Assembly: GCA_023105745.1 (NCBI GenBank)
Contig: JALGQZ010000011.1
Coordinates: forward strand, 22,656,975-22,720,974
Source: Austropuccinia psidii
Lineage: Eukaryota; Basidiomycota; Pucciniomycetes; Pucciniales; Sphaerophragmiaceae
Reading direction: 5' to 3'
Length of the DNA stretch: 64,000 nt
Part shown: one piece after another, positions 7,315-57,422 of the stretch
How positions within the stretch are numbered: the first letter of the stretch is position 1
Layout: each line of letters opens with the position of its first letter
Position numbers and translations under genes: made by a program
Notes under the pieces: model-generated
What the model was told of the DNA's origin: nothing
The model's database searches: none
Seen by the model: only the letters and a program-made list of their open reading frames with translations

Positions 7315-7328
7315 AAGGTGGGGGGCAG
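7315..7328 (+). other. A1 polypurine tract
   Basis: AAGGTGGGGGGCAG sits directly before the LTR TG at 7329. This is the expected primer site for plus-strand DNA synthesis. Confidence 0.8.
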
Positions 7329-8848
7329 TGTCACAACCATGGAAATCCACCCTCTTGGACCTTAATATGGCATATCCATGCCATATCTAATATATGGCAA
7401 TTTGGCAATATCCATAATCATTGGTCAAACTGGCCATTATCATGTTTTATGGCCTTAATGGTCATTTTATCATCTAGGGTCAACCTGGCCCCTTCAACAT
7501 CATCAAGCCATTCTAGGCTGTCTCTTTGCTTCTGGGAATCTTGGGCATTTTCCATACAACAGGGAAAATACAGCCCAAAAGCCTGTATTTGGCTTTTTAA
7601 GCTTTAAATACAGTTTCAGCACTTTTGCGCATTTGGCTGTATTAAGCCATTTAGGCCATATTTCTCATGTATTATGTGAAATATGCCCAAAAGGCCATAT
7701 CAGGCCTTTTGGGGCTTAACTGCCAGATTTTTGCATTTTGCGCACTTTCCGCAAATACAGTTTTAAATCTGTATTAGCTGTATTTATCCAAAAACCAAAA
7801 AATTCCCAAATCACTCAAAAAACACTTTATCACCTCTGAAGCCTTCCAAAACCCAAATTTTATTTGTATCCTCCTGACATCACCTCAAAAGACCTTTGGC
7901 CCATTTCAACCTCCAATAACTAAAAGTGCCATATATGGTGTTATACCCCATTATGCATCTTTTTTCAGAAGCAATCCAATGGTGGAAATTTCAAATGGGT
8001 ATTTCAACTTTTCAACAGGTCATCAAGGCACACCTTGCAAAGGATTCATCAAGGCTCAAGGGAAAGTGTCATAATCCCAAATACCAATGATGCCATCAAG
8101 CAATCACGGGTTATTCTCACTCACAGTATTCCTCCAAGGGAATTCAGGCTGTTCATTCTCAAGGGATATTCAAGAGGCAGTTTCAAAACAATGTGTCAAG
8201 CTTCAATTCTCCACCAATCCACCTTGGCAACCCAATTCATTCATTACAGTCTTAATTCATCAAGACCTGTATTTTTCATTCATAAACCATGGGAATATCA
8301 TTCAACCCAGTTCATTTCCCAATCTGGCAAGGTATACACTTCATTAAGCTGTCAATACAGCTTCAAGGATTCAATACAGACCAGCTGTCAGCCTGAAGGA
8401 GTTAAGCTCTCAGCGTTTCACATATACCAGCCTCCTTTGACCCTGGGGGGCCTTTCCCCCAGTTAATTGATATATTTTGATTTTATTTTATCTTTATTTA
8501 TCTTATCATTTTTGTTAGGTGAATACTGATATTATCAAGTCAGTCATTTAGCACCTTTTGTCTTTTCTTTCTTTGCCTTTCAATGGATATTTGTTGGTCA
8601 TATCCTTACTAATTCCATTGTTCATTTTGGCAGGTTGAAACAGTGATTAAGGACTTACTTGGTTGGCTCTTCGGCCATTTGGCTTCCCATTTCTCTTATC
8701 GCATCTCATATTTGTACTTGCATTATTCTTAGAGAAATTCAATTCTTTATTTTTATTTTCTTTATTCTTTTGGAGTCTTCCAAGTGAGTTCCCTGATTGC
8801 TGAGTGCCAGGCCACTCTTGTTTTTTCTGTTCAAGAGCCCCTGTGACA
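7329..8848 (+). repeat. A1 3' LTR (1520 bp)
   Basis: It begins TGTCACAACC and ends CTGTGACA, so the ends are a 6-bp inverted repeat TGTCAC/GTGACA. It aligns at both ends with the solo LTR at 32288-33918 and with the A2 LTR at 55979-56713. It holds about nine AATACAG/CTGTATT motifs, TTTGCGCA motifs near 7626 and 7737, and the conserved hairpin at 8443-8462. Sequence after it (GGTAT...) is D-type leader. Confidence 0.9.
8443..8462 (+). promoter_or_regulatory. Conserved LTR stem-loop (A1)
   Basis: CTGGGGG pairs with CCCCCAG around a 6-nt loop, followed by TTAATT and preceded by a CATATACC motif. The same stem with a compensating base pair is found at 33537-33555 and 56327-56345. Role unknown; it could be an RNA structure in the R region or a 3'-end signal. 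Confidence 0.55.
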
Positions 8849-8879
8849 GGTATATGAAAATACCTCTAAGGCTCACAAT

Positions 8880-24771: not shown

Positions 24772-25128
24772 TCAGTGTTTGCAAGCAGTCAAAAACTTTA
24801 TGTTCTTTGGGTATTTACCTTTGAATGTGCCTTGTACAAATTTACTGTCTGCTGACTTGGGCAGTTTGCCTTTGGAAGTTACAACTGGGTTAATAATTGT
24901 AATCTTTCCTGTACAAGTGGTTAAGGTTGGTTTACCTTGTATGGATGCAGAGTTTTGTGGTTTTCTACTTCTCTGAGTGGCTATTGGTGTCCACTTCTTG
25001 GCTGTGATGAGACCTTCACTGTGCCTCTTTCCTTTGCCCTTGCTGCCCTCTGGTTCTGATGGTGTCACTGGTGTGTTGGCCTGTGACTGGGTCTCAAGTG
25101 GGATGTAATTTTCTTCCACTGAAATCAA
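24772..25128 (-). CDS. B1 first leader ORF (low complexity)
   Basis: 118 codons in the third frame, ending one base before the ATG of the next leader ORF. Rich in Lys, Ser, Thr and Pro (SEPEGSKGKGKRHSEGL, PVVTSKGKLPKSADSK), with no Met after the TTG start, so true initiation is unclear. An acceptor-like TTGATTTCAG lies just at its start on this strand, so it may be a spliced exon. No family recognised. Confidence 0.35.
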   Translation of the reverse strand: MISVEENYIPLETQSQANTPVTPSEPEGSKGKGKRHSEGLITAKKWTPIATQRSRKPQNSASIQGKPTLTTCTGKITIINPVVTSKGKLPKSADSKFVQGTFKGKYPKNIKFLTACKH

Positions 25129-31776: not shown

Positions 31777-32287
31777 TGTGAGCCTTGAGGTGTATTTTAC
31801 ATACCCAAATAGGCCACAATTATCTTAAAATCAAATTCTGAACTATGCATAACCCATCAGTCATTCATATATTCAAAATTCATCATTTTTGATTTCAGAA
31901 AACATGAATAACTTTTTACTGAGTAAGTAAGTCCATGGATTTAAGGCCAGATTTTGATTCTACACAAAAATTCACCTAGGGTAGCTCCATAGAGTGAATA
32001 AGCTCAAATCAACTCTCTGAGGTGGTAATATGGAAAATACTTCAATACCACATCATCAATACCACATAAAAGATCCGCAATTTTTTTTTCTCTATTTCAC
32101 CCCGATATAATGAGATTGTGGGAAACCCCATATTACATTTACACTAATAATGGTGTTATGCATGTTTTGGGCACTTAATATTATGGTATTATTACATGCA
32201 CTTTTGGTACACCCATAGTGGATATCTCACTTGAAGCTTGAATTTCTATTTTGAAGTAAAAAATAGACAAGGGGGGACAAAATACAT

Positions 32288-33918
32288 TTTCACAACCACA
32301 AGTAATGACCCTCCTTCTTGGGTGTTGTGGAAATTCAGCGTGGAACCAAGTTGGGGCCAATTGGCCACACCATATCTTTTATGGCTGATTGCCCTCCTTT
32401 GGTGTTCTATGGCCATTTGGCCATAGAACCTTCCCCTGGCCTTTCATGTCCTCAGGCCATATTCTTCCATCATTGGCCTCCCTGGCCAATTTCCATATCC
32501 CCAACCCCCAGGACTCTATCTTTGTTTTTGGGCCTGGGGGTGTCCCTTTGTCTCCTAGGGGGTTCTGGGCCCCCTATCCATAACCACCCCTTTTCATTAG
32601 GGGGTCCAGGGCCTAAATGGCCTTTTTGGGCCATTTAGGCCCCCTACAGCCTCTACAACCTGTGGGATGTAATTCATCACCGCCCGCGGTGCGTAGGCCA
32701 CGTACGGCGGTCCGTGGGCCAATCAGGCCCCTTTTGGCCTAATCCAATGAGGCCAAAAAGCGGGCAGCCCACTAGCATCCAAGGCCAGGTGGGTCCCAAA
32801 CCACAATTGGGCCCACCTGAGCCATTTTTGGCCCCAAATCCCATGAAGACCCTCAGGACCCATTTTGGCCAAGGATCACCATGGAACACTTTTCAGCCCA
32901 TGGCCTCTGGTAACCACCAGAGGCCACCAGATCAGCTCAGCAATCCCTCCCCTCAGCTCAAGGGGGATTTTCCCATTCTCCATGCATCCCGTACTCAAGG
33001 TTGCAGGAGTGCTGCTTATATGGTATGATATACCATTATGCACCATGTTTGCTCAGAAATTTAATGGTGAGGTTTTCCTGACCAAATTCCATGATTCCAA
33101 ATCAAGGTCCCAAAATCCAACGCCCATTTTGAAGGAGATCTCTTCAGCTCATCAGTCTGGCAATCCATGGCGGCTATCAGAAGACCATTCAAGGACCCCA
33201 ACCACCTGGCCCTGCAGGAGTTGGGTTGGCAATTATCTCAGGATTATTTAAAGGGTCCTTCTCAGAGGTTATTCATCATTCAATCAGTTGTTAAGGCAGA
33301 AAGTACCTCAATACTCCTTGGACAACTCAATTGGTCCATACAGGCAGAAATCAATTATACCTGTATGTCCTTGACCCAATCAGGCCAATGCATATTCCAC
33401 TGTGGGAATTCAATCACAGAGTTCAATTCTCAAGATGTCCAGAACTGTATTGGCCCAATTCAGACAATACAGCTCGTGACTCACCTTCCAGCATCAGCCC
33501 CTCAGCTTTTTACATATACCGGCCACCTTTCATCACCTGGGGACTTTTTCCCCAGTTAATTAATATATTCAATTTACTGATAATCTTAAGTTAGTCATTT
33601 GCACCTTTTCTTCTTTTCCTGTCAGTGGATATTGGTGGTCATATCCTTTACTAATTCCATTTCCTTTTCTGGCAGGTTGAAACAGTGAATTGGGGATTCA
33701 CTTGGTTGGCTTCTTGGCTTTTGGCTTTCTTATTTCTCTGGCCATTGGCTTCACTTGCTCTTTCTTATCTTTGACATACTTGTCCTTATTCTTACTCTTA
33801 TCCTTTTTTAAGAAATTCATTCTGCTTCATCTTTTTATCCTTTTGGAGCCTTCCAAGTGAGTTCTTGATTCATGAGCTCCAGGCCACTCTTGTTTTTTGT
33901 CCAAGAGCCCCTGTGACA
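32288..33918 (+). mobile_element. Solo A-family LTR inside the D1 5' LTR
   Basis: 1631 bp, starting TTTCACAACC (G to T at the second base) and ending CTGTGACA. Flanks are TACAT (32283-32287) and GACAT (33919-33923). The D1 3' LTR has the empty site (GACAAAAGACATC at about 42239-42251), so both ends are certain. It is GC-rich in part (32380-32900) and shares the late LTR blocks with A1 and A2. The ORFs that cross it are not genes. Confidence 0.96.
33537..33555 (+). promoter_or_regulatory. Conserved LTR stem-loop (solo A)
   Basis: CTGGGGA pairs with TCCCCAG. The A-T pair replaces the G-C pair of the A1 and A2 stems, so pairing is kept despite base changes. Confidence 0.55.
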
Positions 33919-35333
33919 GACATCAAAGAGAGCCAGGGTACCCAACTTCTGAGGCCTCTGAGGCATGGACAGCTCCAAAACTTGGATCCATGGCTGACCT
34001 TGGCCCAAGTAGTAAACTAAAACCTTTTGGGAACTTGGTTACCATGTTACAACTTCAGTAAATCATAAGAAAAAAGCAAATAACCTGCTATTTTGACATG
34101 CCAAGGAGGTAAAGAGCAACTTAGACTCCTGTAACCATGTCAATTCTTAATTAATCTCCATGGTTCAACCCCAAATGACTAATTGAAGCCCTTTTTGGAC
34201 TATTATCCATTGATTTACCTCATAGTAACCAGCCATATACTGCTATTTGCAATTCTACATAGAAATGAGCTAAAACTTCAAAAATTCATTAAAAATACAA
34301 TTCTCAATTAATCTTTCTCAAACTCTTAAAACCAATTTAGAACTATATAATTCATATAAAAACCAAAAATAATTATAATTCTATTTGTAAAATTGAAAGG
34401 TTTACTTAAAGTCCATTTTTGATGATTCCACATGAAACACAGAATCTTTAAAAATTTACAGAAAATACATTGTGTGATGAAACTTCCAATAAAATTGATA
34501 AATTTGAGAAATCAATGATTATTTTGTAATAAAAGGATATTTACAGTTGTTACTCCTTTTATTCTTAACCATAAATGGGTTGGTATTCATGTAAAAGCCT
34601 CAATTAAGTAATTATGATAATCTTACGTGACAACAGATGATGCAATCAATAATCCAAAGAGTTTTATTGTTTTCTCACTCACTGGTTTTTCATTTTGCTC
34701 CATGGCACGCTTCTGTGAGCTTTCTTAGACTTAACAGAGGCGTCCTCTTGCTGTTTTTTCAAAAGAATCACATTATTATATTACACCTGTATTACCAACA
34801 AGTAAGTATTAGTTTAAAATATTTCTTAAGTGTTTTATTCTTTCATAAATCAATCAGAAAGACGTGAAATCATAGAAATTGACTATATATTGTTGTAATA
34901 TTGTTATAAATCAATTTTGATTCATTCAATCCACAATTCCACGCCAAATCCCTCTTTACTATTATCTTCTAAAAAGGTTCATTGGATTAATAGTGAGTGA
35001 TTTATCTTAATTCTTAAAGTTTTTCTCTCGCAATGGTTTTCTTCAAGAATTATCTTTATAATTATTCTTGTCAAAGATAATCATATATCAAAATAATTTG
35101 ATTCTTTTAATAAAAGAAGTTTTTATTATTAAATTCTTCTTGTAATTGATTCTAGTAGACAATTACCGCTTAATTTTTTTCTAATCACTGGTAGTGTATA
35201 ACATGTAAGAGAAAAAATTCTTTCATTATTTGATTGTGGTTATAAGAATTGGTATTATTATATTTAATAAGAACAGTCATAGTAATGTTGATTAATAGTA
35301 ATATTATCAACAGTTTCATAGACACATCTTACA

Positions 35334-35353
35334 TTTGGGGGCCTGGCCATGAT
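35334..35353 (+). other. D1 primer-binding site
   Basis: TTTGGGGGCCTGGCCATGAT directly follows the 5' LTR. It matches the B1 site with one change in the shared part. Confidence 0.7.
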
Positions 35354-41746: not shown

Positions 41747-43656
41747 TGTGAGCCTTGAGGTATATTTTACATATCCAAATAGGCCACAATTATTTTAAAA
41801 ATAACCTCTGAACTATGCATAACCCATAAGTCACACATATATTCAAAATTCATCATTTTTGATTTCAGAAAAGATGAATAACGTTTTATTGAGGAAGTAA
41901 ATCCATGGATTTAAGGCCAGGTTTGGATTCTATACAGAAATTCACCTAGGGTAGCTCCATAGAGTAAATAAGCTCAAATATACTCTTTGAGGAAGTAATA
42001 TGGAAAATACTTCAATACCACATGAAAGATCTGGAAAAACCTTTGTTTTTCTCTATTTCACGCGAAAATAATGGGAATGTGAGAAATCCCATATTACATT
42101 TACACTAATAATAGTGTTATGCATGCTTTGGGAACTTAATATTATGGTATTCTTAAATGAACTTTTGGTACACCCATAGTGGATATCTCACTTGAAGCTT
42201 GAATTTCTATTTTGACGTAAAAAAATAGACAAGGGGGGACAAAAGACATCAAAGAGAGACAGGGTACCCAGCTTCTGAGGCCTCTGAGGCGTGGACAGCT
42301 CCAAAGCTTGTATCCATGACTGATCCTGGCCCAATTAGTAAGCTAAAACCTTTTGGGAACTTGGTTACCATGTTACAACTTCAGTAAATCATAAGAAAAT
42401 AGCAAATAACCTGCTATTTTGACATGCCAAGGAGGTAAAGAGCAACTTAGACTCCTGTAACCATGTCAATTCTTAATTACTTTCCATGGATCAACCCCAA
42501 AAGACTAATTAACACCCTTTTTGGACTAGTATCCATTGATTCACCTAATAGCCACCAGCCATATAGTGCTATTTGCAATTCTATGCAGAAATGATGTAAA
42601 AACTTCAAAAACTCATTCAAAATACAATTCTTAATTAATCTCTCTGAAACTTCTAGGACCAATTAATTACTTCATAGTTCATATAAAAAACAAAAATAAT
42701 TATACCTTTATATGTAAAATTGAATGCTTTACGTACAGCCCATTTTTGATGATTCCAGGTGAAACACAGAATTTTTAAAAATTTACAGAAAATACATTCT
42801 GAGATGAAATTTCCAATAACATTGATAAATTTAAGAAATAAATGATTATTTTGAAATTAAAGAAAATTTACAGTTGTTACTCCTTTTATTCTTAACCATA
42901 AATGGGTTGGTATTCATGTAAAAGCCTCAATTAAGTAATTATGATAATCTTACGTGACAACAGATGATGCAATCAATAATCCAAAAAGGTTTATTGTTTT
43001 CTCACTCACTGGTTTTTCTGTTTGCTCCATGGCACGCCTCTGTGAGCTGTCTGAGACTTAAAAGAGGCCTCCTCTTGCTGTTTTTTCATAAGAATCACAT
43101 TATTATATTACACCTGTATTACCAACAAGTAAGTATTAGTTTGAATTATTTCTTAAGTGTTTTATTCTTGCAGAAATCATCCAGAAAGACGTGAAATCAT
43201 AGAAATCAACTATATATAGGTTTAATATTGTTATAAATCAATTTTGATCCATTAAATCCACAATTCCACGCCAAATATCTCTTTACTATTATCTTCTAAA
43301 AAGGTTCATTGGATTAATAGTGAGTGATTTATCTTAATTCTTAAAGTTTTTCTCTAGAAATAGTTTTCCTCAAGAATTATCTTTATAATCATTCTTGCAA
43401 AGTATAATTATATATTAAAATAATTTCATTATTTTAATAAAAGAAGTTTTACTATAAAATTCTTCTTTTAATTGATTCTAGTAGACAATTACTGCTTACT
43501 GTTATAATCACTGTTAGTGGATAACACGTAAAAGAAATAACTCTTCAATTATTAAATTGTGGCTATAATGATTTTTATTATTATATTCCATAAGAACAGT
43601 CATAGTACTGTTTATTAATAGTAATATCATCAACAGTTTCATAGACACATCTTACA
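41747..43656 (+). repeat. D1 3' LTR
   Basis: 1910 bp, TGTGAGCCTTGAGG to CATCTTACA. It keeps the empty site that dates the solo A LTR in its partner as a later event. Confidence 0.94.
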
Positions 43657-49914: not shown

Positions 49915-51168
49915 ATTATTATGTTATTTTTGGATTCTACTACAAAAAGATCTAGGGTAGACCCATAGGGTGTTATACCCAAAAATGAATATTTCTTAAG
50001 TTATTGGAATATTTAAGAATCTCATAGTACAATTGCAATTTTTTGAACATTTTTTAAAAAATTGTTAAACTCAAGCTTAAATAAGCTTGAGCTTAAAGTT
50101 GCATAAGGTTTATGCAAACATACCAAAATTTTAGTTGAAATTAAGGTGTTGTGTATATTTAATGAATTGGCTAAGAATTTTCCATACAGAATGTAAATCC
50201 TGCGTGATCTCAATTTAAAGATATTTAAGGCAATAGTATGGCTTTAAACGAATAAAAGGGCAAAATTCACACAAAAAGATGGGACAAAGGAAAAAGAACA
50301 AAAAGAGTTGGGATACCCAACTTTTTGGATCTTCAACACTTCAATTAAGGTGGTAAACCTGAATTGGAGTATTTTTAACCTTATTTAAACTTTAAGATTA
50401 GACTTAGATCCAATATTAAAGTTTAAACTGGTCTCATCCCAATTTGGACAGGAATTTTAAGCTGCCAAAGGGTAAGTCCCAATATGAAATCTTGAAATGA
50501 AAGTTTTGAGAGCTGTAAAAGCTTAATTTAGCTTAAAACCTAAAATTTACAAGTAACAAAACTATATCAAAAGTTAAGGTTGAGTGTCTATTGATATTTT
50601 ACATGGAAAAATAGCAATAACTTCAAAAATTCATTAAAAATCCAAATCCCAATGGATTTTCTTGAAATTTTCACACAGCTTACAGTTAAATGTTATCTGT
50701 GTATACATAAGATTTTAACTCCCTTTTTTGAGCAAGTTTTATTTTTATACATCCTGGAAAATTACTCTTTTAATTATACTCAAAGAAAATTAAGATTTCT
50801 TTAAAAATCAATTAAAAGTTGAGTTTAACAGTTTTTTGATTGGAGCTCTATTTTTAAGTTGTTCACGCAGTGAGCTTTAATCTAAATAAACTTTTTTTAT
50901 ATTAAAGCTTAAAATGATCAATCCAAAAGAGGATTGAATTTACTTGGAGTTAAGAATAACACTGGTAACTTTAAATTGGAATTAAAAATGAGTTACCTTA
51001 AGCTAAGAACCTTATTTTCAAGTATGGTTTTGCAGTTTTGACCGGAGCACGCCCTCTATATTCATTATGAATCATTAGAGCTGCTTTGTAGACATAAAAA
51101 GAGTCTATTCATCACCGTTTTGTCAATCAATCATCATTATTCCAATCATATTAGAAATCTAAACAGGT

Positions 51169-51572
51169 TGTCACAATTCTGTCTGCCAGACCTCAACAAA
51201 GGGAACTCTTGCCAAAAAGGCTATTAAACCGGTTGAAAGACCGATTAATACTGGCAAGTTGTAGATCACATTCCACCATGTGACAGTACCCCTGGGTTTA
51301 GGGCACTGCATCCCAAAGTGCATGTAACTGATGGTATTACCCATGTCTCCCTCATGGAGTTACATTAGTCACAACAGGAGCCTACAAGGAACCCCCAAGG
51401 AGCGGAACCCTTGTATGCCAATGGAGTGGAAAACCCAGCAATTTCTGGTTGTTTGATTGAGACCACCTCTTTTCTCCAACCGGAATCGAACCCATGATGT
51501 TGGTAACCAGTTTATTGTCACAATGCTGTCTGCCAGACCTCAACAAAGGGAACTCTTGCCGAAAAGGCTATT
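51169..51572 (-). repeat. GC-richer SINE-like segment with partial direct repeat
   Basis: A 57-bp block (TGTCACAATTCTGTCTGCCA start, 51169-51225) recurs with two changes at 51516-51572, so the segment is 1.16 copies of a 347-bp unit. On the minus strand it has GGTTCGATTCC (51487-51497), an exact Pol III B-box or tRNA T-loop, with TGGCAGACAG about 43 nt upstream as a possible A-box. Base composition is near even, unlike the AT-rich surroundings. A tRNA-derived SINE is the best reading; a full tRNA fold cannot be made. Confidence 0.5.
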
Positions 51573-53171
51573 GTCACGTTGGGACAACATTTACCCAGAG
51601 AGGGGGGTGGATTTCATCAGCAAGAATCCTCAAAATTTCATCAAGTTCTCAAGAAAAATGAAATTAAAGAGTCAAGATTCTTTTCAATAAAAGTTGATAT
51701 GTTTTCAGATGTAGTTGATCAAATTCAAAGACAAGTATGGAAAGACAAAGATTATAAGGAAATCCTCAAGAAATTAGCAAGAGGAGAATCAGTCCCAGAC
51801 TATTCTCTTGAACCTCAAGCAAAATTATTATTGTTCAAAGATAGAGTAGTCATTCCAAGCAATCATGAAATTCAATTGGACATTCTTCAAAAGCATCATG
51901 ACTCACCATTGGCTGGCCATCCTGGCCAGGATAAGACCCTCAAGCTCATCAAGAGGGATTTTTATTGGGCTGACATGAATCAAATCATCAAGGACTATGT
52001 GTCCTCATATCAGCAATGTTCAAGAAACAAGAACATCCACCATAAGAAGTTTGGACTACTCAAGCCTCTTCAAATTCCATCTGGTCCTTGGAATTCTTTG
52101 TCAATGGACTTTATCACTCAATTGCCCTTGTCAAGCAACTTTGATTCAATTTTAGTAGTTGTAGACATATTTTCAAAAATGGCAATATTTATTTCAACTT
52201 ATTCAACAATCACTGCTTTGGACTTAGCTCAAATATTCATTAATCATGTCTTTTCCAAACATGGTCTTCCAATCAGTATTGTCAGTGATAGAGGTTCATT
52301 ATTTGTTTCATAATTTTGGACTCAATTGTGTCAGCAGCTCAAGATATCGAGAGATATTTCAACTGCCTTTCACCCTGAAACAGATGGACAGACAGAGAGG
52401 GTAAATCAGATTCTAGAACAGTATCTTTGGATGTATGTCAGTTACCATCAAGATGACTGGCACACCTGGCTCCCTCTGGCTGAATTTGCCTATAATAATG
52501 CAGAACATTCATCAACAAAACAGTCACCATTTTTCACCATTTATGGAAGAAATCCCAGCTTTGATTCAATTCAAATTTCTCAAGATACACCTGCTGGAAA
52601 GTTATCATCAAAACTCCAATCAGTACAGCAAGTTGTCAGAGAAGAATTAGAGTCAGCAATAAAGCGTTTTAAGAAGTATGCAGATAGAAATAGAGCAATT
52701 TCACCAGATTTCCAACCTGGGGACAAAGTATGGCTAGCTTCCAAGAACATCAAGACAGCAAGACCCAACAAGAAACTTTCAGAAAGATGGTTGGGAACCT
52801 TTGAAGTTCTCAAGAAGATTGGCAGCCATGCATATCACCTCAAGTTGCCTCAACAATGGAAGTCAGTTCACCCTGTCTTCCATGTGTCCTTGTTACAGCC
52901 AGTGAAGCAATCAACTATCCCAAATAGACACCAATTGCCACCACCTCCAGTAATAGTGGAAGAGCAAGAAGAATGGGAAGTGGCTCAGGTTCTGGACTCA
53001 AAACTCAAGAGAGGTTCATTATGGTATTTAGTTGAGTGGAAAGGATTCAGTGAAGACCCAGAAAGAACAACTTGGGAACCAGCTTCCAACCTTACCAACT
53101 CCCCAGACCTTGTCAAGGATTTTCACACTATGTATCCAGACAAGCCTTGCCCAAATGCCTCAAGAGTTTGA
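51573..53171 (+). pseudogene. A2 integrase with chromodomain, one stop
   Basis: One frame from about 51579 to the TGA at 53169-53171, broken only by a TAA at about 52311. Blocks: NIYPERGVDFISK spacer, HHCC (HHDSPLAGHPGQ, YQQCSRNKN; the first Cys of CxxC is Tyr), SMDFITQLPLSSNFD, SIVSDRGSLFVS, TDGQTERVNQILEQYLW, WLGTFEVLKKIGSHAYHLKL, and a chromodomain with EEWEVAQVLDSKLKRG, LVEWKGFSEDPERTTWEP. The Tyr in the zinc site and the stop make it inactive. Confidence 0.9.
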
Positions 53172-53620
53172 TTTATGGTGCTTGGTGGGGATTGGAGGTT
53201 ATGAAAGTAAGTTCCTCTCCTGGCATGCAACTTTAAGGGGGTATTCTACCCAAATTTGTTGTAAGCATCACCTTGGCCACTTTGTGAGCACTTGTTGATT
53301 TTTTGGACAGGTTCAGAAGGCCTTGCAACATCATACCCTCAAGATTTAGACCTTTCATCAAGATATGGCCCAATCTTTTCTCTTATTTTATTTTCTTTCT
53401 TTAATCATGCCATAAATTATCTTTAAAGACATTCATTACCACAATTCATGTTATGGCATAATTTCTGTTCCATTTATGGTGCTTGGTGGGGAGTGGAAGT
53501 TATGAAAGTAAGTTCCATCTCCTGGTATGCATCCCTGAGGGGTCTACTTCTTGTAAAACATTACCTTGGCCACGCTGTGAGCATCAAATGCTTGATCTTA
53601 TCTTTCAGAACATTTTGGCC
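53172..53620 (+). repeat. A2 post-chromodomain doublet with two intron-like segments
   Basis: Unit 1 starts TTTATGGTGCTTGGTGGGG and has donor GTAAGT at 53207 and acceptor GGACAG ending 53310 (104 nt). Unit 2 has donor GTAAGT at 53508 and acceptor TTTCAG ending 53608 (101 nt). The offset is 301 bases. Boundaries and internal blocks match the A1 doublet. Confidence 0.6.
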
Positions 53621-53869
53621 AAGATCAAGCAACTCACCACAAGGAGGACAACCCTCAGGCATTTCTTATTTCTATTTCTTTACTCTCTTTTTCTCTCAAT
53701 TCTTTTTCATTTTTATTTTTTATTTCATTTTCTTTTACTTGTATGATTTATTTTTCATTTCTTGTTTCAAAAGCAGCAATCATAACTCCCATATCTTGTT
53801 TGGGGAGTCAATTTATTTAATAATCAAGAGCAAACACTAGTAATGGTAAAGACCAGCTACAGATAATTG
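53621..53869. other. T-rich spacer downstream of both genes
   Basis: Lies between the doublet and the 3' end of the antisense gene. T-rich on the plus strand at 53660-53760. Probably shared 3' untranslated sequence of the two converging transcripts. No gene. Confidence 0.45.
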
Positions 53870-55047
53870 TCATCGAAATTTCTTCAAGGCTTCTCTAAAC
53901 TTAACAACCATGTCATCTTTATAAGCAACTGCCTCCCTGGCCAAAGTAGCAGTGGGCTCCCCTGGAATAGCACTCTTCATAGCCTTATCAACAAACATCT
54001 CAGTCAAAGAATCAACTTCAGCAAATAGAGAGGTTACCACCTTCTTTTTCACCCTTTTCTGATCAGTGAAGTTGCCAGTAATATTCCAGCGGCAACGGGT
54101 TTCAAAGATTGATTCAGGTTCTGGAGACATTGGGTCTCTAGAAGTGCTGGCCACTGGTGGTTGGATGATGGTAGAGGTGGAAGCAAGTGTGGAGGGCCTG
54201 GTTGGGTATCTAATTGGAAGTTGAGGTGGTTGGGAGGACCTGATCACTTCATTATTGGTGGTACTGGCTTGGACTGGGGATTGTGAGGTGGATTGGATTC
54301 TTCTTTTCTGGATTGGGGTAGTCATTTCAAGCTCTTCTCCATCAATCTCATCACTGCCTTCAGCATCAGTATCAATTTCATCTTGAACCACCAAATTTCT
54401 CTTCAATTTTCCAAGTCTTCCATCTTTTCTGGTGACCAAAATGGGAACCTCTGGGGCCACTCCAATGGGATTTCCTTGGGGGTGAATTGATCCTACAATG
54501 GCTACCCAGGAGCCACTGGTATTATTCAATTGTTGGACACCTCTCATTCCAGATCCAGTCACTGAAGAAGAAGAAATGAAAACATAGAAGTCAGTAACCC
54601 ATCAATTTTATGGCCAATCAACTCACAATTGGAGTGACCAGAGGTGGAATCAGAGGTGGGAGGTTCATCAACAGGAGCTTCCAATCCAAATCTTCCACCC
54701 TTCTGAATGCTGCTCCATAATCTTCTGGCATTTTCAGGAAAGCTATAGTGGGCTTGGGAACAATTTCTTTTTCCAAGATTGCAAAATTGACACCTGGTGG
54801 ACCTAGAAGTAGCAGATTCCACACAAGGAATCCCTTTCCTCTTACAATTGGTGCAGGGTGGCTCAATAACTCTGAAAGATTTAAAACCATTATAGGTTTT
54901 CTTGATGTCCCAAATCTCTGTAGGGGCCATACTCTCTTCAGAAAGCTCCCTCAAGTTATCAAAAATACCAGGACCATAAAGTACAGAAGGTGGGGAATCA
55001 GAGTGATTGGAATCACAAAGGGAAGTCAGCCTTGAACTCCTCTTCAA
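53870..55047 (-). CDS. Antisense two-exon gene, Zn(II)2Cys6-like protein carried by A2
   Basis: Exon 1 is 55047-54627, exon 2 is 54561-53870, about 370 residues. The 65-nt intron (54626-54562) has GTGAGT donor and CTTCTTCAG acceptor; 65 is not a multiple of three, and splicing joins the two open frames. Residues about 63-94 read CTNCKRKGIPC then CQFCNLGKRNC, spacing C-X2-C-X6-C-X10-C-X2-C-X6-C, which fits the fungal binuclear zinc cluster, though Lys/Arg placement is not classical. Next is PENARRLWSSIQKGGRFG, a conserved-looking block. Exon 2 has VAPEVPILVTRKDGRLGKLK, an acidic stretch, a Ser/Thr/Pro linker, a basic QKRVKKK and a helical end (LFAEVDSLTEMFVDKAMK). No stop in 370 codons. An alternative start is the Met at 54930. 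I recall similar hypothetical proteins, many copies, in Austropuccinia. A1 lacks it. Confidence 0.75.
54562..54626 (-). other. Predicted intron of the antisense gene
   Basis: 65 nt, GTGAGT at the 5' end, pyrimidine-rich TTCATTTCTTCTTCTTCAG at the 3' end. Read through, exon 1 stops 29 codons later and exon 2 would lack its upstream frame. Confidence 0.7.
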
Positions 55048-55964
55048 GTCAAAATTTCAAATTCAAGACCAAGAGAATTATGGACCATTGCAAGTCAGCA
55101 AGGCATTTATGCCAATTGACCAGTCAAGGAGGGGATAAGAAGAAAGACATTCAAGAAGAAATCAAGATCAAAAAGAAAAAAACTTCTTCAAATGGCCCAA
55201 TTGTCCAATTTCATGAATTTATGCACTTTGGCACAAATGGCCATATCAGACCTCAAAACTTCAAAATAGCTCAGTTTTATCATTTTTATCAAAATATGCT
55301 TAATTATGCATATTGGCAAATTTGCACATTTGTGCACTTTTGCGCAAAAGGCTTCAAAAGGCCTTTTTGGCCAATTTCATCATAATTGCGCATTTGCACA
55401 CTTTGCGCAAAAATGCGCAAAATGGCCAGAACACTTTATAAGGCTATTTTTCATCATTAATCAAATTTTTTCAATTTTTTCACCAATATATGCCATTATG
55501 GCATATATGTGCATTTGCGCATTTTGCGCATTTTTGTGAAAATTGGCCAAAATCCCCTTTAATCACAAAATCAAGGATTTTGGCCAGGACTTCTGAAATG
55601 GTCTAAAACCTCAAGTATTGGCCACTTTATGCCAACACTCTCAAGATTAAAATTATGATGAAATCAGGTGTTCTTGGGACATAAACCCAGGTCACCCACT
55701 TTTCAAAAGCCATGAGGACTCAAGAAACGTTTGGTGAAGACACTCAAGACAAGAATGAAGGAATTTTGAAGTAAAAGAGGGAATTCAGAATCATGATCAA
55801 GAGGAAAATACCTACAAGTGATCAAATGAAGATTTTGTTTGAGTATTGATTGAAGAAGAAAGTTTAATGGGATAAATTTAAGGAATTGGGGGAAAGAACT
55901 GTATGGATTGTTTGCAAGCTCATCAAGACTCACTTTACTTATGGTGCTCAGAGCTCACCACTTT
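55048..55964 (-). promoter_or_regulatory. Upstream region of the antisense gene with TGCGCA palindromes
   Basis: No ORF supported. Six TGCGCA palindromes lie in 55341-55530, several inside TTTGCGCAAA or TTTGCGCATTT, with related TTTGCACA and AAAAGGCCTTTTTGGCC. A TATA-like CCTTATAAAGTG is on the minus strand at about 55433-55444. Promoter role is inferred from position. Confidence 0.4.
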
Positions 55965-55965
55965 C

Positions 55966-55978
55966 AAGAGGGGGATAA
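55966..55978 (+). other. A2 polypurine tract
   Basis: AAGAGGGGGATAA immediately before the LTR TG at 55979, preceded by GCTCAGAGCTCACCA as in A1. Confidence 0.8.
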
Positions 55979-56713
55979 TGTCACAGCCAAGGAGGCAGGG
56001 GCATTACCAATCATATCCAACAATCATTACTTCATTGATACCCCTCAAAACCCAATCAGCAAGGGGGTTTCATTCAACATTCTCCAAATACAGTTTTCAG
56101 ACCTCAATACAGTTTCATACAGGCAAGATCCAAATACAGGATTCACCAAATACAGGCCTGTAATCAATACAGGCGCAAATACCTGTATTGACTGTATAGC
56201 TTGTATTGGATTCATCAATACAGGATTCAATCCCACATCCAACTTCTTGCAGCATACAGACAAGTATCTCAACACTCAAACTCCAAGGCTGGTATTTCTC
56301 ACATATACCAGCCCCTCTTCACCCACCTGGGGGTTTTTCCCCCAGTTAATTAAAATATTGGATTTATTATTTAATATTATTTTATTTCTCATTAAGAAAT
56401 ATTATTTTATTAATTATTAAGTTAGTCTTTGCCTTCCCTCACCTGTTCAGTAGAGTCCTGGTGGCCATATCCTTTATTAATCCTTTTCTCTTTTCTGAAC
56501 AGGTTGAAACAGTAGTACAGGATTATTTGTGGTTGGCTCTTTATTATTGCTTTTGCTTTCCTCTCATATCTTTTAATTCTTATTATCTTATGACTAGGAA
56601 ATTATTATCTCATTTCATTACTCTTATCAATTGGTACCTTATTCTGAGCCCTCCATAAGTAAGTCTTTTCACTGAGTGCCAGGCCCTCTTCACTTAGAAG
56701 AGCCCCTGTTACA
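55979..56713 (+). repeat. A2 3' LTR, short form (735 bp)
   Basis: TGTCACAGCC to CTGTTACA (GTGACA with one change). It matches the ends of the 1520-bp A1 LTR but lacks about half of its middle. AATACAG or CTGTATT occurs eight or nine times in 56087-56223. The hairpin CTGGGGG/CCCCCAG is at 56327-56345. Confidence 0.9.
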
Positions 56714-57422
56714 CAGGTAAAGTTTTATTAAATATGAAATCTTATTATTAAAGGAATTCTTAAGCTATTTTATTCTTTATTAATTTTAAATTTGATGAAT
56801 TGAAATCATAAAATTCAGATTATTATTGTAATCCCAAATAATATTTTTTATTATAGAAAATTATTCTCTTAAATATCTTTCAAAATCCACAAATTCCTCT
56901 TCAAAACGTTTTAATCGTATTTTTTATCATAAAAAGCTGTTTTACCTTTTAAAATATTGATTTTTGGTGTTTTTTTAACTTATAATCATTACTTAATATA
57001 ATAATTGTTGTTGTTTGACTTGTTATATTAAATAAATATTATAAGTGAGTTTTCTTTAAAGTTCTAAATTTTTTATCTAGGATTAGTTTTTTTATAAATA
57101 ATTTTTCTATAAGAATTATCTCTGCACAGTTTGTGTGATGATTTCTTTTATCAATAATATTCTTGTATCGTTTTCAAGTGGATTGAGATTAATATCTTCC
57201 ATGTGTAATTGTCTCATTAAGAGCTTTACACTTCTTATTGTTATAACAGTCAGTGACTATAACAATAATAGAATAGCTCAATTTTTTTAATATATATTTA
57301 TTTCAATAATTATATAAATTTGTGGTTATAATTTTTAATTATGTTATATTTTCTACTGAGCAAACTCACAGTACTCTTGGTATTTGTTACTATTATCAAG
57401 ATTTTCATAGACAAGCCTTACA

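Follow-up and report, generated by a model that had tools for sequence, protein, structure and literature searches.

The 64,000-nucleotide stretch of the Austropuccinia psidii genome analyzed here (the window) raises the question of what a retrotransposon does with a gene that lies on the strand opposite to pol, and whether the cysteine-rich product of this gene is, as the first-pass annotation had proposed, a regulator that the element carries for itself or a transcription-factor-like protein captured from the host. The retrotransposon, A2, is itself an insertion, as its copy interrupts an older AT-rich element whose uninterrupted counterpart lies in reverse at ~28384. Homology to the uninterrupted element stops at 51168 and picks up again at 56709, a 5-bp duplication, CAGGT, flanks the insertion (51164-51168 and 56714-56718), and the GC content is 0.34-0.45 across A2 vs mostly 0.20-0.31 in the flanks (0.35 at 49.0-49.7 kb). 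Because A2 sits inside an older element, any pol-like sequence at 49-51.1 kb lies outside A2, and an element reaching to 49-51 kb could be ruled out as the carrier of the gene, since that stretch belongs to the older element. The antisense position between chromodomain and 3' LTR was correctly assigned at first reading; the upstream half of pol that A2 as first described would take in is older sequence.

Within A2, the order of features is integrase, chromodomain, spacer, antisense gene, intergenic stretch, polypurine tract, and 3' LTR (Table 1). The integrase and chromodomain are all that the window copy retains of gag-pol, the rve match falls below its Pfam cut-off in the first piece, and the nonsense codon that had been reported for the integrase is present at 52313. 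A ~120-bp near-duplicate block follows just after the chromodomain (53166-53294 and 53467-53583) and is likewise double-matched in 20 other copies of the family. At the left end of A2, homology to all 20 of these copies begins at 51571. The first 402 bp of the insertion (51169-51570), which the family copies do not match, have a 58-bp direct repeat at their two ends (51168-51225 and 51515-51572) and contain a minus-strand stretch that resembles a tRNA B box; this segment may be a fragment of a TRIM or SINE. Helenus elements have been reported from Austropuccinia (PMC10886601). Elsewhere in the window, another element probably has its LTR pair at 31777-35336 and 41747-43656; the two are ~88-90% identical, and the left one contains ~1.6 kb of extra sequence.

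Table 1. Coordinates of the A2 insertion and its antisense gene in the window.
Feature	Position	Strand	Basis or remark
A2 insertion, TG...CA ends	51169-56713	+	flanking homology break and target-site duplication
Integrase (H2C2, rve), SH3_Tf2-1, chromodomain; stop at 52313	51573-53171	+	Pfam matches
Exon 2, including C-terminal helical part	53870-54561	minus	open frame
Intron, 65 nt, GTGAGT...CTGAC...CTTCAG	54562-54626	minus	predicted from splice signals
Exon 1	54627-55056	minus	open frame
Six-cysteine region, C-X2-C-X6-C-X10-C-X2-C-X6-C	54760-54855	minus	all six cysteines in 37/38 genome copies
Remnant TGCGCA array, six sites	55309-55543		sites at 55341, 55387, 55404, 55414, 55516, 55525
Polypurine tract, AGAGGGGGATAA	55967-55978	+	identical letters precede the LTR in 20 other copies
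3' LTR, TGTCACAG...CTGTTACA	55979-56713	+	directly after gene and array in 20/20 copies

The open reading frames of the window include two on the minus strand, 54559-55056 and 53870-54601, which join into 373 codons without a stop once the predicted intron (54626-54562) is removed, in agreement with the earlier claim of ~370 codons across a 65-nt intron. The predicted intron contains a branch-like CTGAC, the A of which lies 29 nt from the 3' end of the intron, and a pyrimidine tract before CTTCAG. In 9 of the 60 junction-crossing gene models of A. psidii MF-1 that were listed (of 95), the intron is 66 nt long and is read through in frame, so that splicing would be unneeded for an open frame in those copies and needed in copies with 65 nt. 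The usual start methionine, at 55039-55041 and present in 37 of 38 copies, is missing from the window copy, which argues that this copy is partly decayed; its next methionine (54928-54930) would give a protein of 331 residues. A location of the gene inside the LTR was ruled out, as the polypurine tract and LTR start (55967-55979) lie beyond it. Searches for tRNA genes and for Rfam families at gathering score found none, and tblastn revealed no second copy of the gene in the 64-kb window, only weak short matches.

In the genome at large (1.015 Gb, in line with the gigabase genome reported for A. psidii (PMC8063080)), the gene stretch has 1,017 candidate places. Forty scored candidates, the window's own included, have the full length to within two bases, with 100% identity for the window's own and 96-97% for the others. 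All 20 copies retrieved together with their flanking sequence, which were selected for their similarity to the gene, have integrase-chromodomain (at 93-97% identity), reversed gene, intergenic stretch, and 3' LTR in identical order. For one copy (L021) only the first 360 bp of the 3' LTR were matched, and in one of the 20 the LTR start after the polypurine tract is changed. The check called for at first reading, whether copies exist elsewhere and sit antisense in the same slot of A-type elements, is passed by these similarity-chosen copies, in which the gene has the position of an antisense additional reading frame between pol and the 3' LTR. The gag-pol region of one copy, L010, was matched in Pfam by Ty3_capsid (27.6 bits, just under the 29.1 cut-off), RVP_2, RVT_1, RT_RNaseH, rve, SH3_Tf2-1, and Chromo, a domain order that assigns the host element to the Ty3/gypsy chromoviruses. 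L010 and L011 lie 92 kb apart on one contig (C9) and share a stop at codon 89, equal match scores, and equal array positions; they are likely a segmental duplication.

The intergenic stretch between the gene and the 3' LTR has a feature of its own, an array of the palindrome TGCGCA. The window contains eight TGCGCA sites vs 0.83 expected, all of them in A1- or A2-type elements, and six of the eight fall at 55341-55530. The 20 other copies have 7-30 sites each between gene and LTR, amounting to 334 in the 20 intergenic stretches vs 1 in the remaining ~177 kb of those loci. Successive sites are 8-11 bp apart in 258 of 314 spacings, the short ones with a mean of 9.3, and across the 314 spacings the six-base core is kept while the spacers vary. 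In 19 copies, the first site lies 248-286 bp from exon 1 and the last site 433-470 bp from the LTR, such that the length of the array varies while both of its edges stay near-fixed relative to gene and LTR. Genome-wide, a triple TGCGCA pattern was found at 25,041 places on each strand (as the pattern is palindromic, both strands give identical sites), and its backward control had no genome-wide match.

The array is also where CpG survives. In the array stretch, the observed/expected CpG ratio is 0.48 but falls to 0.04 when TGCGCA is masked; the gene and the LTR have ratios of 0.047 and 0.043, respectively, and the gag-pol side has 0.10; 334 of the 354 CpG dinucleotides of the array stretch fall inside the palindromes. 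In A. psidii, transposons carry CpG methylation, younger ones more, and CpG has been lost genome-wide (PMC12774611). That the array almost alone keeps its CpG suggests either that it is protected from methylation or that its sites are selected for.

Arrays are also found where the gene is not. In a sample chosen by array (the eight such loci that come first along contig 1), seven of eight loci are without the gene, namely five A1-type LTRs (L029, L030, L031, L034, and L036), which have a phased TGCGCA array inside the LTR with the same palindrome and phasing as in A2-type elements, and two gene-deleted A2-type elements. No antisense gene was found in the five sampled A1-type array elements; likewise, A1 in the window lacks the gene, as had been noted, its chromodomain being followed by polypurine tract and LTR at ~7328, and its LTR (7328-8849) has two TGCGCA sites, at 7626 and 7739. 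The gene is present in one of the three A2-type loci of this sample (L033, 95.9% identity, with a one-base gap). The other two, L032 and L035, have different internal deletions of the gene, both gene ends being kept in L035 (BLAST) and the 3' end in L032 (BLAST; the 5' end was recognized by eye in the sequence), and both retain the array. Two different deletions that both keep the array are what would be expected if the protein acts in trans, and the two loci are candidates for derivatives served in this way. As the array occurs in A1-type LTRs too, it is a cis element common to at least two related families, with the gene known from one only.

The same observations bear on the strongest alternative to a self-encoded regulator. 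Since seven of the eight array loci lack the gene, a host factor could be the reader of the array, which would then be an enhancer or promoter recognized by a host transcription factor and used by two or more related LTR families; the antisense protein would do another job, such as nuclear entry or contact with RNA or chromatin, and would not read the array. This reading accounts for the five A1-type loci, in which the array resides in the LTR, no gene was found, and palindrome and phasing are identical. It fits less well with the 20 A2-type copies, where the array occurs only beside the gene, at near-fixed distance, and the ~9-kb remainders contain a single TGCGCA elsewhere. We regard it as possible but on the unlikely side.

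Whether the gene itself is maintained was addressed with a set of 38 similarity-chosen copies (37 fetched copies and the window; L048 was dropped for length). The frame is open to codon 372 in 32 of the 38, GT-AG and CTGAC are kept in all 38, and all six cysteines are kept in 37. With the near-duplicate L011 excluded from the variant counts, the 110 nonsynonymous and 32 synonymous variants private to one copy give an omega-like ratio of 1.20, similar to that of dead copies; the counts are 6 and 4 for variants in two copies (0.53) and 15 and 15 for variants in three or more copies (0.35; Fisher p = 0.0034 for private vs three or more). Within the cysteine region, the shared variants are 0 nonsynonymous and 3 synonymous. 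A smaller set of 20 genome copies and the window gave 65:18 private vs 11:13 shared variants (p = 0.004) and a pooled pN/pS of 0.48-0.55, with bootstrap limits of 0.30-0.93 over two kappa settings. Among 120 MF-1 proteins, shared amino-acid variants are conservative, with a mean BLOSUM62 score of -0.10 vs -0.91 for private ones and a neutral one-step expectation of -0.41 to -0.48. Of the 38 fetched copies, L048 is the only one with an indel in the gene; the gap in L033, of the array-chosen sample, is a second case. Selection among copies, which had been set as a test, is thus evident in an omega-like ratio for shared variants of 0.35 rather than ~1, and the gene seems to have been kept working by evolution. 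A chance open frame was ruled out by the homologs, the common slot, and this constraint.

The conservation of the cysteines holds among these close copies (37 of 38) but not among the MF-1 gene models, where only 29 of 86 have all six and the six cysteine columns average ~0.84 vs 0.85 over all sites. Cysteine-to-phenylalanine changes recur in 10-15 MF-1 models at three of the six positions. In the MF-1 homologs P0001-P0120, the commonest class of inferred change on the sense strand of the gene is G-to-T, with 365 of 9318 opportunities, C-to-A for comparison having 273 of 12163; many of the cysteine-to-phenylalanine changes can be attributed to this G-to-T excess. The loss of cysteines in the MF-1 models is likely due to decay of dead copies, although relaxed constraint may have a part in it.

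The gene could also be a passenger that hitch-hikes in one master lineage with no current role, next to an array that is a slippage-prone minisatellite. The many decayed MF-1 copies, the gene-deleted derivatives, and the range of array size from 7 to 30 are consistent with this notion. The constraint on shared variants described above argues against it, as do the retention of the six-base core between variable spacers, the restriction of CpG almost entirely to that core, and the presence of the same core at a different place in A1-type LTRs, and we consider it improbable.

After the six-cysteine cluster, the protein has a middle part of basic and acidic character, and its C-terminus is helical. 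The consensus of fungal Zn(II)2Cys6 factors (PF00172) is C-X2-C-X6-C-X5-12-C-X2-C-X6-8-C, and the spacing of the gene product, 2, 6, 10, 2, 6, is present as first described and fits it in both cysteine number and spacing. The score, however, is below the curated Pfam cut-off of 21 bits, at 9.8 bits for the window protein and 11.8 bits for the MF-1 homolog P0007. Weak Zn_clus matches occur in 23 of 44 members, with a best E of 0.028 and with profile positions 18-34 of 39 matched in the two members shown. The earlier designation as Zn(II)2Cys6-like accordingly stands for the spacing and not for the Pfam score, and the resemblance is one of spacing, with family membership not claimed. No other fungal transcription-factor domain was found by Pfam, and in the 35 members scanned no match had an E below 0.028. 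Searches of the PDB gave single-sequence matches at E 0.34 and 0.97 and none with a profile, and no relatives were found in IMG/VR. An AlphaFold2 model of P0007 reaches a pLDDT of ~80 only for two C-terminal helices; the cysteine region is below 50 (44 sequences), too poor a model for a fold search.

Protein searches in three size classes returned 200 homologs at E <= 0.001 in the middle class, of which at least 120, all those listed, are A. psidii MF-1 models, as well as two homologs of 397-1261 amino acids, both A. psidii models, and 32 shorter matches, all 32 from A. psidii. No homolog outside A. psidii and no attached transcription-factor body was found among the matches listed (120 of 200 in the middle range), and the gene is, judging by these matches, likely absent from other rusts. 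The first-pass suggestion of a captured host transcription-factor-like gene finds no support in these results. It would be in keeping with the fungal-type cysteine spacing, the weak Zn_clus matches in 23 of 44 members, and the intron-like stretch. Had a spliced host mRNA been captured by retrotransposition, the gene would be without an intron and in sense orientation. The intron and the antisense orientation are therefore unexpected for a retrotransposed host mRNA, no listed match (2 long, 32 of 32 short, 120 of 200 middle) comes from outside A. psidii, none has a transcription-factor body, and host capture appears very improbable. About as improbable is the notion that the antisense transcript matters through double-stranded RNA control of the sense RNA, with the frame incidental: antisense RNA control has been discussed for plant elements (PMC7264820), but the shared variants are constrained at the protein level, 37 of the 38 fetched copies are free of indels in the gene (L048 and, in the array-chosen sample, L033 have one), and the array is left unexplained.

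Taken as a whole, the data are best explained by a self-encoded antisense DNA-binding regulator that reads the TGCGCA array, a reading we favor tentatively, at somewhat less than an even chance. It brings together a protein under selection, a cysteine cluster of a DNA-binding type, and phased palindromes by the 5' end of the gene. According to this proposal, a family of Ty3/gypsy chromoviruses that has been active recently in A. psidii encodes, in addition to gag-pol, an antisense accessory gene with one intron, which would be expressed and spliced to give a seemingly lineage-specific and most likely nuclear DNA-binding protein, with its cysteine cluster presumably binding zinc. The protein would probably recognize the dense TGCGCA palindromes, ~9 bp apart, between the gene and the 3' LTR, in an array that begins roughly 250-300 bp upstream of the gene's own start. 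Once bound, it would control its own promoter and the adjoining LTR, or keep the stretch free of CpG methylation, and it may also act in trans on gene-less relatives that retain the array. A palindrome would suit a dimer, and the two C-terminal helices of the model could serve pairing. Known zinc-cluster factors mostly read CGG triplets, not TGCGCA. Also counting against this proposal are the Pfam Zn_clus score under the cut-off, the lack of a PDB profile match, and the pLDDT below 50 in the cysteine region, as well as the choice of the copies in the selection test by similarity to the gene and the intact six cysteines in only 29 of 86 MF-1 models. Of the idea that the element carries its own regulator, the part that concerns the gene as a standing component (the same slot in 20 of 20 copies, and constraint) has held up; the regulator role is strengthened by the array and weakened by its occurrence without the gene.

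A more specific and fairly unlikely form of the proposal is that of an anti-silencing system of the element's own, in which the protein binds the TGCGCA palindromes and keeps them unmethylated, hence the sole retention of CpG there, and which is exploited by gene-less relatives, as a convergent counterpart of plant VANC. For A. psidii, 5mCpG calls from HiFi reads exist (PMC12774611). VANC of the Arabidopsis VANDAL elements is likewise an element-encoded protein paired with a short motif repeated in noncoding parts; its motifs change in copy number by tandem duplication, and VANC6 also affects a gene-less motif holder, AT9TSD1 (PMC5735166, PMC10398659). A motif that is dense in the noncoding part of the element and rare elsewhere is what is observed here as well (334 vs 1 in ~177 kb). 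VANDAL is, however, a DNA transposon with a different protein, the VANC21 motif YAGTATTAY is non-palindromic and without CpG, and binding and methylation loss have been demonstrated for VANC (PMC5735166, PMC10398659), whereas the A. psidii counterpart is proposed from sequence.

In terms of layout, the locus is reminiscent of several known systems. HBZ is a bZIP protein of a retrovirus. As an antisense gene for a nuclear regulator near the 3' LTR, HBZ of HTLV-1 (mentioned in PMC11963269) is an analogy of layout only. Antisense accessory genes in Ty3/gypsy elements are a known kind, as several such genes have been described, and in Retand an antisense protein with predicted DNA binding occurs together with tandem repeats (PMC11963269). 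In the plant elements with antisense genes, as in the similarity-chosen copies here, the same slot and antisense orientation are found in most copies. For the TRP28 proteins of Retand, DNA binding is a prediction, and about half of the elements have tandem repeats in that region (PMC11963269); gene23 of Grande is driven by a promoter of its own and yields a nuclear product (PMC7264820). The plant elements differ in that they encode other proteins (no transposase 28 match was found among 35 members here at E <= 10), and the excerpts of the two sources mention no CpG-bearing palindrome array (PMC11963269, PMC7264820). The Boty-like elements of Botrytis cinerea are likewise fungal Ty3/gypsy elements with an antisense gene, brtn, in the same place (Zhao et al. 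2011, cited in PMC8365987, PMC7264820); brtn is from an ascomycete, and no array is mentioned in the excerpted accounts (PMC8365987, PMC7264820). Searches of the open-licence PMC literature turned up no rust element in which a cysteine-cluster protein goes together with an array of CpG palindromes.

What antisense accessory genes do in LTR retrotransposons is described as undetermined (PMC7264820). The gene of A2 has a concrete candidate for its target in the dense and phased palindromes beside it, and their array also marks related elements that could be served in trans. In the very transposon-rich genome of A. psidii, methylation and CpG loss have been proposed to act as a brake on transposons (PMC8063080, PMC12774611). 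If the anti-silencing form of the proposal is true, a retrotransposon family would have escaped this brake with a DNA-binding protein of its own.
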